Source: Elusimicrobiota bacterium (GTDB lineage: Bacteria; Elusimicrobiota; Endomicrobiia; Endomicrobiales; Endomicrobiaceae). From it: a stretch of DNA of 39,347 nt. Shown piece by piece: positions 34,747 to 36,399 of the stretch; positions within the stretch are counted from its first letter, which is position 1; each line of letters starts with the position of its first letter. Both the position numbers and the translations under genes were made by a program. The stretch lies in assembly GCA_031287735.1 (NCBI GenBank), contig JAITSO010000008.1, positions 1 through 39,347 of the forward strand, read 5' to 3'. The notes below the pieces were generated by a model. It saw only the letters and a list, made by a program, of their open reading frames with translations, was not told the DNA's origin and ran no database searches.

Positions 34747-35349
34747 ATGGCAAAAGAAATAATTCTTGCTACAGCTAACGAGCATAAAGTAGCAGAAATA
34801 AAAATTTTTTTTAAAGACTTGAAAACCAAATTCACCTCGATGACTTCTTTTGAAAAATATCCACACGTCATAGAAGATGGCAAAACACTGGAAGAAAATG
34901 CTGTAAAAAAAGCTAAAATTGTCGCAAAGTTCTTTAATCAATGGACGCTTGCCGACGATACAGGTTTGGAAGTTGATTTTTTAAATGGAAAGCCGGGTGT
35001 TCACACAGCAAGATATGCCGGAAATAATTGTTCATACCAAGATAATAGCAACAAGCTTCTTGAAGTTTTAAAAGATGTTTTGCCGCAAAAAAGAACTGCT
35101 GTTTTTAAGACAGTAATTGCATTAGCAAACCCCGCTGGAGGCGTTTTTTTGGCAGAAGGCAAATTGTTTGGTATAATTTCGACGTTTCCTTGTGGTAATT
35201 GTGGGTTTGGTTATGATGCTGTATTTTATCTTCCGGAATGCAAAAAAACTTTAGCAGAATTTAGCTTGGAAGAAAAAAGTTCTTTAAGTCATAGGGCAAA
35301 AGCTTTAAAAGCTGCAAAAAAAATTATAGAAGATTTAGTCGGGGAGTAG
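34747..35349 (+). CDS. rdgB: dITP/XTP pyrophosphatase (RdgB/HAM1 family)
   Basis: Removes non-canonical purine triphosphates to prevent their incorporation in DNA and RNA. The 200-residue protein begins with ILATANEHKVAEIKIFF, contains LADDTGLEVDFLNGKPGVHT with ARYAG and CGFGYDAVFYLP, and ends with FSLEEKSSLSHRAKALKAA, all standard for the family. Its last codons GGG GAG TAG coincide with bases of the following tRNA-Pro: the stop TAG (35347-35349) forms tRNA positions 8-10. The gene is divergent from the sugar importer operon, 131 bp away. The overlap means a transcript may be either translated in full or processed into the tRNA. Confidence 0.94.
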   Translation: MAKEIILATANEHKVAEIKIFFKDLKTKFTSMTSFEKYPHVIEDGKTLEENAVKKAKIVAKFFNQWTLADDTGLEVDFLNGKPGVHTARYAGNNCSYQDNSNKLLEVLKDVLPQKRTAVFKTVIALANPAGGVFLAEGKLFGIISTFPCGNCGFGYDAVFYLPECKKTLAEFSLEEKSSLSHRAKALKAAKKIIEDLVGE

Positions 35350-35413
35350 CGTAGTTGGCTAACGCGCCTGCTTTGGGAGCAGGAGATCGCAGGTTCAAGT
35401 CCTGTCTCCCCGA
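35340..35413 (+). tRNA. tRNA-Pro (anticodon TGG), overlapping the end of rdgB
   Basis: A 74-nt cloverleaf. The acceptor stem pairs CGGGGAG with CTCCCCG including the C1-G72 pair of bacterial tRNA-Pro. The anticodon stem-loop is CCTGC-TTTGGGA-GCAGG, giving anticodon TGG, and the T arm contains AGGTTCAAGTCCT. The discriminator is A, with no CCA encoded. The first ten bases lie within rdgB on the same strand, including its stop codon. The hldD start is 24 bp after the tRNA. Confidence 0.96.
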
Positions 35414-35436
35414 TATTTTTTTAACGGAGTGTTTTA

Positions 35437-36399
35437 ATGGTAGTTCTTACTGGCGCCGCAGGTTTTATAGGAAGTTGCTTTTTATGGAAATTGAACAAAG
35501 AAGGCATTAAAGATATTTTAATTGTAGACCACTTAGATGATGACGAAAAATGGAAAAATTTGATTGGAAAAACTTTCTCTGATTACATGCAAAAAGAAGA
35601 TTTTTTAAGTGCTGTTGTAAGCAAAAAAATTCCTAAACCAGATAAAATAATACACCTCGGTGCTTGTAGTTCAACCACTTTCACTGATGCAAATTATTAT
35701 GTGAAAAATAACTATGAATTTTCAAAAGTTCTTGCACTTTGGTCGTTTGAAAATAATGCCCATTTCATTTATGCATCTTCTGCAGCAACATATGGAAGTG
35801 GTCAATACGGATATGATGACAGCGTGGATATAATTGCAAAATTATCACCATTAAATCTTTATGGCTTTTCAAAACATATGTTTGATTTATGGCTTTTAAG
35901 TAATGGGTATTTAAATAAAGCCACAGGGATAAAATTTTTTAATGTTTTTGGTCCTAATGAGTATCACAAAGACGACATGAGAAGCGTAATTTGCAAAAGT
36001 TACGATGATGTTTCGCAAAAGGGAATTATAAAACTATTTAAATCTTACAACAGCAATTATCCAGACGGTGGTCAAAAAAGAGATTTTGTTTATATTAAAG
36101 ATGTAGTAGAAGCAATGTTTTTTTTATTTCAAAACCCAAACCAAACGGGCGTTTTTAACCTGGGAACTGGAAAAGCTATGTCGTGGAACGATGTGGCAGT
36201 GTCAATGTTTGCAGCTGCCGGAAAACTAGTAAACATAGACTATGTTGGGATGCCACCGCATTTAAAAGCAAAATACCAATATTTTACTCAAGCTAAAATG
36301 GATAATTTAATAAATGCTGGCTACAAAAAACCTTTTACGCCGTTAGAAGATAGCATTCGCGATTATTTTTCTTACCTCAAAAATAAAACTTACTTGTGA
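35437..36399 (+). CDS. hldD: ADP-glyceromanno-heptose 6-epimerase
   Basis: Epimerises ADP-D-glycero-beta-D-manno-heptose to the L-glycero form used in LPS core. A 320-residue short-chain-dehydrogenase-like protein with the NADP site TGAAGFIGSCFLWKLN at residues 5-20, the family-specific IVDHLDDDEKWKNL, HLGACSSTTFTDANYY, the catalytic YGFSKHMFD (Tyr and Lys) and KFFNVFGPNEYHKDDMRS. The length is normal. It begins 24 bp after tRNA-Pro and is followed by the heptose kinase and kdsB, so the three form an LPS core operon that may be initiated within the tRNA region. Confidence 0.95.
   Translation: MVVLTGAAGFIGSCFLWKLNKEGIKDILIVDHLDDDEKWKNLIGKTFSDYMQKEDFLSAVVSKKIPKPDKIIHLGACSSTTFTDANYYVKNNYEFSKVLALWSFENNAHFIYASSAATYGSGQYGYDDSVDIIAKLSPLNLYGFSKHMFDLWLLSNGYLNKATGIKFFNVFGPNEYHKDDMRSVICKSYDDVSQKGIIKLFKSYNSNYPDGGQKRDFVYIKDVVEAMFFLFQNPNQTGVFNLGTGKAMSWNDVAVSMFAAAGKLVNIDYVGMPPHLKAKYQYFTQAKMDNLINAGYKKPFTPLEDSIRDYFSYLKNKTYL

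Follow-up and report, generated by a model that had tools for sequence, protein, structure and literature searches.

The stretch of DNA analyzed here, 39,347 nucleotides long and referred to below as the window, comes from a member of the Endomicrobiaceae (Elusimicrobiota) that has Candidatus Endomicrobiellum and Endomicrobium as its closest named relatives and a 1.36-Mb draft genome in 60 contigs. On the plus strand, the ORF list places rdgB at 34747..35349, coding for a 200-aa XTP/dITP diphosphatase of the RdgB/HAM1 family. TIGR00042 aligned with residues 4-193 of the 200 at 165.5 bits (cut-off 145.35), which places the protein in this family, and the identity of the ORF as RdgB is secure. 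The protein ends at the usual place, 17 residues past the conserved SHR, where the C-terminus ...EDLVGE is followed by a TAG stop codon at 35347-35349.

A tRNA-Pro(UGG) gene, in which CCA is not encoded, lies on the same strand at 35340..35413 and was detected by Rfam RF00005, by ARAGORN and in a census of the tRNAs of the genome. RF00005 matched over its full model (1-71) at 69.4 bits, with every arm intact in a complete cloverleaf; ARAGORN called Pro with anticodon TGG, its ends being one base wider than those from Rfam. This is the sole tRNA-Pro with anticodon UGG found in the genome, the other tRNA-Pro genes in the census having GGG and CGG. The sequence, the ORF list and RF00005 together define a ten-base overlap of rdgB and tRNA-Pro (35340..35349, plus strand), the shared bases being CGGGGAGTAG, in which the TAG of rdgB forms tRNA positions 8-10. 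The anatomy given in an earlier note on this DNA, namely that the last ten bases of rdgB are the first ten of the tRNA and that the stop codon lies within them, was confirmed by the ORF list, RF00005 and TIGR00042. Only this one of the 43 tRNAs of the genome is entered by a recognizable same-strand upstream CDS. Several others start 7-25 nt past a long ORF, and since they trail these ORFs so closely, co-transcription of mRNA and tRNA is plausible in general in this genome.

A terminator between rdgB and tRNA-Pro was considered and rejected, as there is no space for one before the stop codon and a terminator scan found none nearby. With no space for a terminator ahead of the stop, every full-length rdgB message has to extend ten or more bases into the tRNA, and a co-transcript spanning rdgB and tRNA-Pro is thereby predicted, compelled in part by the anatomy. 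Two bases behind tRNA-Pro begins a run of seven T (35416..35422, plus strand), and the scan found no terminator-like hairpin near either this run or the rdgB/tRNA-Pro junction. Transcription may end at the T run with the tRNA itself acting as the hairpin, or may read through into hldD at 35437. Similar T-rich runs lie behind tRNA-Pro in several relatives. The hldD (rfaD) gene, encoding ADP-glyceromanno-heptose 6-epimerase (35437..36399, plus strand; TIGR02197, 372.2 bits), starts 23 nt 3′ of tRNA-Pro and is followed by a gene for an hldE/rfaE kinase domain (TIGR02198, 390 bits) and then by kdsB (TIGR00466, 192 bits).

Gene order and overlap among relatives

Among the Endomicrobiaceae, symbionts of termite-gut flagellates have undergone progressive genome erosion (PMC11257099). 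The order of rdgB followed by a same-strand tRNA-Pro(UGG) was found throughout the order to which the family belongs. It is not confined to that group: Bacillota, Eisenbacteria, Nitrospiraceae and others share it, and Arg and His tRNAs often lie 3′ of the pair. Loci of other phyla with this order include L136, L139, L145, L149, L162, L172 and L175, together with L177, L178, L143, L150, L164 and L191; at such loci Gly, Arg or His tRNAs often come next, and a TTGACA-type promoter usually stands just before the tRNA. As judged from these sequences, the gene order is old and the overlap is not.

Within the clade of the window, which comprises Endomicrobium, Endomicrobiellum and the genus of the window itself, 44 loci could be compared: 14 have an overlap, 18 a spacer of 0-9 nt and 12 a longer spacer. 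In 13 of the 14 the overlap spans ten bases and TAG occupies tRNA positions 8-10; in the remaining one, in genome G080, it spans 15 bases and the stop is TAA at positions 13-15. Besides the window, ten-base overlaps occur in 12 further genomes of the order and the 15-base overlap in one more; Ca. Endomicrobiellum calonymphae, a named MAG, has a ten-base overlap too. A tree of RdgB, which is one short gene sampled from genomes many of which are drafts, and in which the window's sequence has a long branch, requires six changes of overlap state, at least four of them forced by well-supported branches. An ancient, conserved overlap was rejected by both the spacing series and the tree.

Two pairs of sister genomes show how the reading frame came to enter the tRNA. 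Genomes G082 (TTA TAG CAAA/CGGGGAG) and G068 (TTA TCG CAAGC/CGGGGAG) differ by loss of the stop codon and a one-base change in the spacer, and between G017 and G063 a one-base deletion shifts the frame, so that the old TAA is now out of frame. The next in-frame stop in both pairs is the tRNA's own TAG, which is present at positions 8-10 in 49 of 52 of these tRNA-Pro genes. The comparison shows an overlap that arose repeatedly as the spacer between rdgB and the tRNA shrank. A pattern search of 295 genomes of the phylum found the close arrangement in Endomicrobiaceae only, apart from two chance-looking matches outside the family. Genome G077 has two diverged copies of rdgB (L111 and L112), each with a similar tRNA-Pro behind it that carries one extra D-arm base; either a duplication of the whole pair or the presence of two strains in one bin could account for them.

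Promoter-like sequences before tRNA-Pro and inside rdgB

In the outgroups, a near-consensus promoter stands directly before tRNA-Pro (TTGACA-18-TATAAT in L118, TTGACA-17-TATAAT in L030, and also in L029). Parendomicrobium, a member of the same family (L024), likewise has a promoter before tRNA-Pro, the TATAAT of which shares bases with the rdgB stop codon. The sequence directly before the tRNA scored 14-15 at these four loci. A TTGACA promoter was found 12-42 nt before tRNA-Pro at 10 of 13 loci from other phyla, and several family members that carry this tRNA elsewhere in their genomes also have a near-consensus promoter before it. The corresponding scores in the window's clade were 8-11.5, which is background (null median 9, 99% 12). 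A promoter immediately 5′ of the tRNA was rejected for the clade, the scores being at background and mostly no higher than those of synonymous shuffles.

A promoter scan of the window detected a candidate inside rdgB instead. It consists of a −35 element, TTGGCA (35149..35154, plus strand; codons TTG GCA, Leu-Ala), and an extended −10 element, TGG TATAAT (35169..35177, plus strand; within codons TTT GGT ATA ATT), to which conservation also pointed. TTGGCA-17-TATAAT matches the consensus at 11 of 12 positions across the two hexamers and has TG ahead of the −10; in its hexamers, its spacing (within 16-18 nt) and its TG it agrees with a sigma-70 type extended −10 promoter. It is the single exact match to TTGNNA-N14-TGN-TATAAT in the 39-kb window and lies 162 nt before tRNA-Pro. 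A transcript is predicted to start near 35184, with a leader of ~155 nt to the tRNA. The only in-frame start codon that this transcript would carry is a TTG at 35266, which lacks an obvious ribosome-binding site.

Almost every clade locus with a short spacer has the element at matching codons, 162-172 nt ahead of the tRNA. Most have TTG at the −35, and at the −10 either the codons TTT GGT ATA ATA or GGT ACA ATA, the latter giving TACAAT. Some clade members have a weak −35 (TTATTA in L087, TTTGCA in L110) or a weak −10 (TAAGAT in L112, TACCAT in L105). The element was absent from all 18 family loci in which no tRNA-Pro follows rdgB, where the protein mostly reads KGYI or similar and the Gly codon is mostly GGA. 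To assess synonymous constraint, 41 sequences of the clade were aligned over 188 codons. The Gly codon was GGT in all 41 (1.00 observed, 0.28 expected), the top synonymous excess of the 188 codons; the highest three-codon window of constraint was the −10 itself, and the −35 Leu codon ranked 6th of 188 with an excess of 0.48. The codons at 34750, 34903, 35125 and 35302 are also under strong synonymous constraint, without evident cause.

Two relatives retain the element where rdgB is failing. In G079 (L257), the rdgB before tRNA-Pro has decayed, with many stops and frameshifts, and TTGTCC-17-TATAAT with its TG is intact 132 nt before the tRNA; from the pattern rate in the window, ~0.004 nested-type sites with one mismatch would be expected per 360 nt on one strand. 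The promoter stretch is the only part of this relic that is intact. In G093, rdgB is partly broken, and both the nested element and the overlap are kept. In G070, where rdgB is gone, TTGACG-17-CATAAT with TG lies 163 nt before the tRNA, and because it has two mismatches to the pattern it is only suggestive of a relic of the nested promoter. No such relic was found in G085, where tRNA-Pro lies behind another gene. The rdgB gene is apparently lost or broken in some flagellate-symbiont genomes (G079, G070, G085 and others), and incomplete bins could be the reason for some of these absences.

These patterns bear on a simple account of the junction in which genome compaction suffices, tRNA-Pro being made from the rdgB transcript alone and TATAAT arising as a by-product of encoding F-G-I-I in an A+T-rich gene. 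The close spacing of several other tRNAs behind long ORFs is consistent with such an account, and the motif is indeed partly conserved at the protein level (FGII/FGTI). However, GGT is invariant in the 41 sequences and peaks above all other codons of rdgB in synonymous constraint; changes from Ile to Thr mostly give TACAAT or TACTAT DNA, the family members without the tRNA lack such DNA and mostly read KGYI, and the element has outlived its reading frame in G079. We consider this account unlikely.

The nested element can be taken as the promoter of tRNA-Pro with good but not complete confidence. When tRNA linkage was compared with promoter presence across the tree, there was one usable independent pair, and the association has no independent replicates because the gain maps to one branch. 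The case for the link is consequently one of conservation and of survival after gene decay rather than of replication.

Origin and consequences of the shared stop codon

The reading that we favor, with a probability of about 0.75, is that the promoter of tRNA-Pro relocated to the inside of rdgB, that the spacer wore away, and that rdgB came to stop at the fixed UAG of the tRNA. In the ancestor, tRNA-Pro(UGG) would have followed rdgB and been preceded immediately by a promoter of its own, an arrangement seen today in the outgroups and in other phyla. In the clade of Endomicrobium, Endomicrobiellum and the window's genus, the front promoter would have been lost and a sigma-70 type extended −10 promoter established inside rdgB, where the conservation of the sequence is observed and its activity is presumed. 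The intergenic spacer would then have come down to a few bases because nothing was left to preserve between rdgB and tRNA-Pro. Loss of the old stop codon or a frameshift, both seen in the sister pairs, extends rdgB into the tRNA; an in-frame UAG would be supplied there by U8-A9-G10, bases that tend to be fixed by tRNA structure.

Two kinds of transcript would follow from this arrangement. Transcripts starting at the nested promoter would be short and untranslated; they would yield tRNA-Pro and could fold and be cut freely. Longer rdgB messages would be translated up to the UAG. If RNase P acted first on a long message, that copy would become stopless and pass to tmRNA or decay. On this scheme, loss of the stop codon to RNase P would be a price tolerated by the cell, not a means of regulation.

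The earlier note had instead proposed a single transcript from which RNase P removes the stop codon, so that translation and tRNA maturation compete and the supply of RdgB is coupled to growth. Part of this proposal agrees with the sequence. There is no terminator space ahead of tRNA-Pro, and a cut at 35339/35340 leaves a message ending in ...TTA GT that has no stop codon; the bases left before the cut at the overlap loci are GT, TC, AT, GC, AC or AA, with a whole codon left in L119. In this way RNase P may turn a fraction of the full-length rdgB transcripts into non-stop RNA, and tmRNA and SmpB, both found in the window genome, could handle them. The special need for tmRNA rescue that had been suggested was not supported, because tmRNA is equally common in relatives with and without the overlap, and tmRNA was rejected as a marker of such a need.

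The regulatory part of the proposal fared worse. It was to be abandoned if a separate tRNA promoter lay within rdgB, together with an rdgB terminator, or if relatives lacked the overlap in an unchanged gene order; the conserved nested element is predicted from its sequence to be such a promoter, able to supply tRNA-Pro independently, and the 44-locus comparison found the overlap to come and go in the clade, mostly absent, while the gene order stayed the same. Nor is the pair needed as a unit: G093 has kept the overlap with a degenerate rdgB, and in G079 rdgB has decayed. Nothing ties the dose of RdgB to growth, and the suggested link between nucleotide cleaning and growth found no support. Production of tRNA-Pro is probably independent of the rdgB transcript, and since this tRNA most likely has its own promoter in rdgB, the two genes are probably not tied in the proposed regulatory way, which leaves coupling as a distinctly improbable explanation. 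That the overlap is an artefact of a wrong tRNA end, a pseudo-tRNA or misassembly has almost no probability even in a draft of this kind, given the full cloverleaf and the normal end of rdgB, and it is refuted because overlapping junctions are shared by relatives (13 other genomes of the order and the named MAG).

Known systems and a second junction

In Escherichia coli, secG-leuU gives a polycistronic mRNA-tRNA transcript from which the tRNA is freed by RNase P or RNase E. Such E. coli transcripts are reportedly linked with the work of Mohanty and Kushner from 2008. The rdgB/tRNA-Pro locus is similar in that a protein gene precedes a tRNA; however, the stop codon of secG-leuU lies outside the tRNA. 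Sigma-70 type promoters that lie inside genes and drive downstream genes are common in bacterial start-site maps. The one in rdgB would differ from the usual nested promoter in replacing an ancestral promoter adjacent to the tRNA, in being visible as a synonymous-site footprint and in persisting after decay of its host gene.

The arrangement also resembles the tRNA punctuation of mitochondria, where a same-strand tRNA abuts or overlaps a CDS and its excision would set the 3′ end of the mRNA. In animal mitochondria, excision leaves an mRNA ending in T or TA, which polyadenylation extends to a complete stop codon (PMC4624183), and in rodent mitochondrial annotations TAG stops overlap trnI and trnW by two bases (PMC4624183). 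In contrast, the overlap here is of ten bases, tRNA-Pro apparently has its own promoter, and in the window the message would be cut after GT, an incomplete sense codon. Completion of a stop codon by polyadenylation does not apply to the rdgB/tRNA-Pro overlap loci, because the residual bases given above are such that no added A can make a stop. Bacterial stop codons at tRNA positions 8-10 did not turn up in a search of the open-access literature, which is weak evidence of novelty.

If the stop codon was captured as we propose, these genomes would record a stepwise route to shared bases, from a tRNA-adjacent promoter to a promoter within the CDS, erosion of the spacer and capture of UAG. Closely related genomes whose spacers range from +9 to −15 nt would offer a natural series for the competition between ribosome termination and RNase P. 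The nested promoter would also explain the conservation of silent sites in part of rdgB. A caution for annotation is that pipelines would clip or reject a CDS that enters a tRNA. More broadly, U8-A9-G10 could be a recurrent, mutation-resistant emergency stop in shrinking bacterial genomes, each capture adding an RNase P leak; fast tRNA processing would then lower the level of the protein, and trans-translation would be in routine use on such genes, although we regard this generalization as doubtful.

A second junction of the same type was found in genome G080 (~0.4 Mb), where a 901-aa ORF (L249:9293-11998) ends in a TAG that forms positions 8-10 of tRNA-Arg(CCG). From a reading of its sequence, we take this ORF to be an alanyl-tRNA synthetase (alaS-like). 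This case indicates that stop capture would not be special to rdgB or to tRNA-Pro. Homologues of similar length to the 901-aa ORF were found in the other genomes searched, and the spacers between alaS and tRNA-Arg in relatives of G080 are 10, 77-199 and ~1000 nt.
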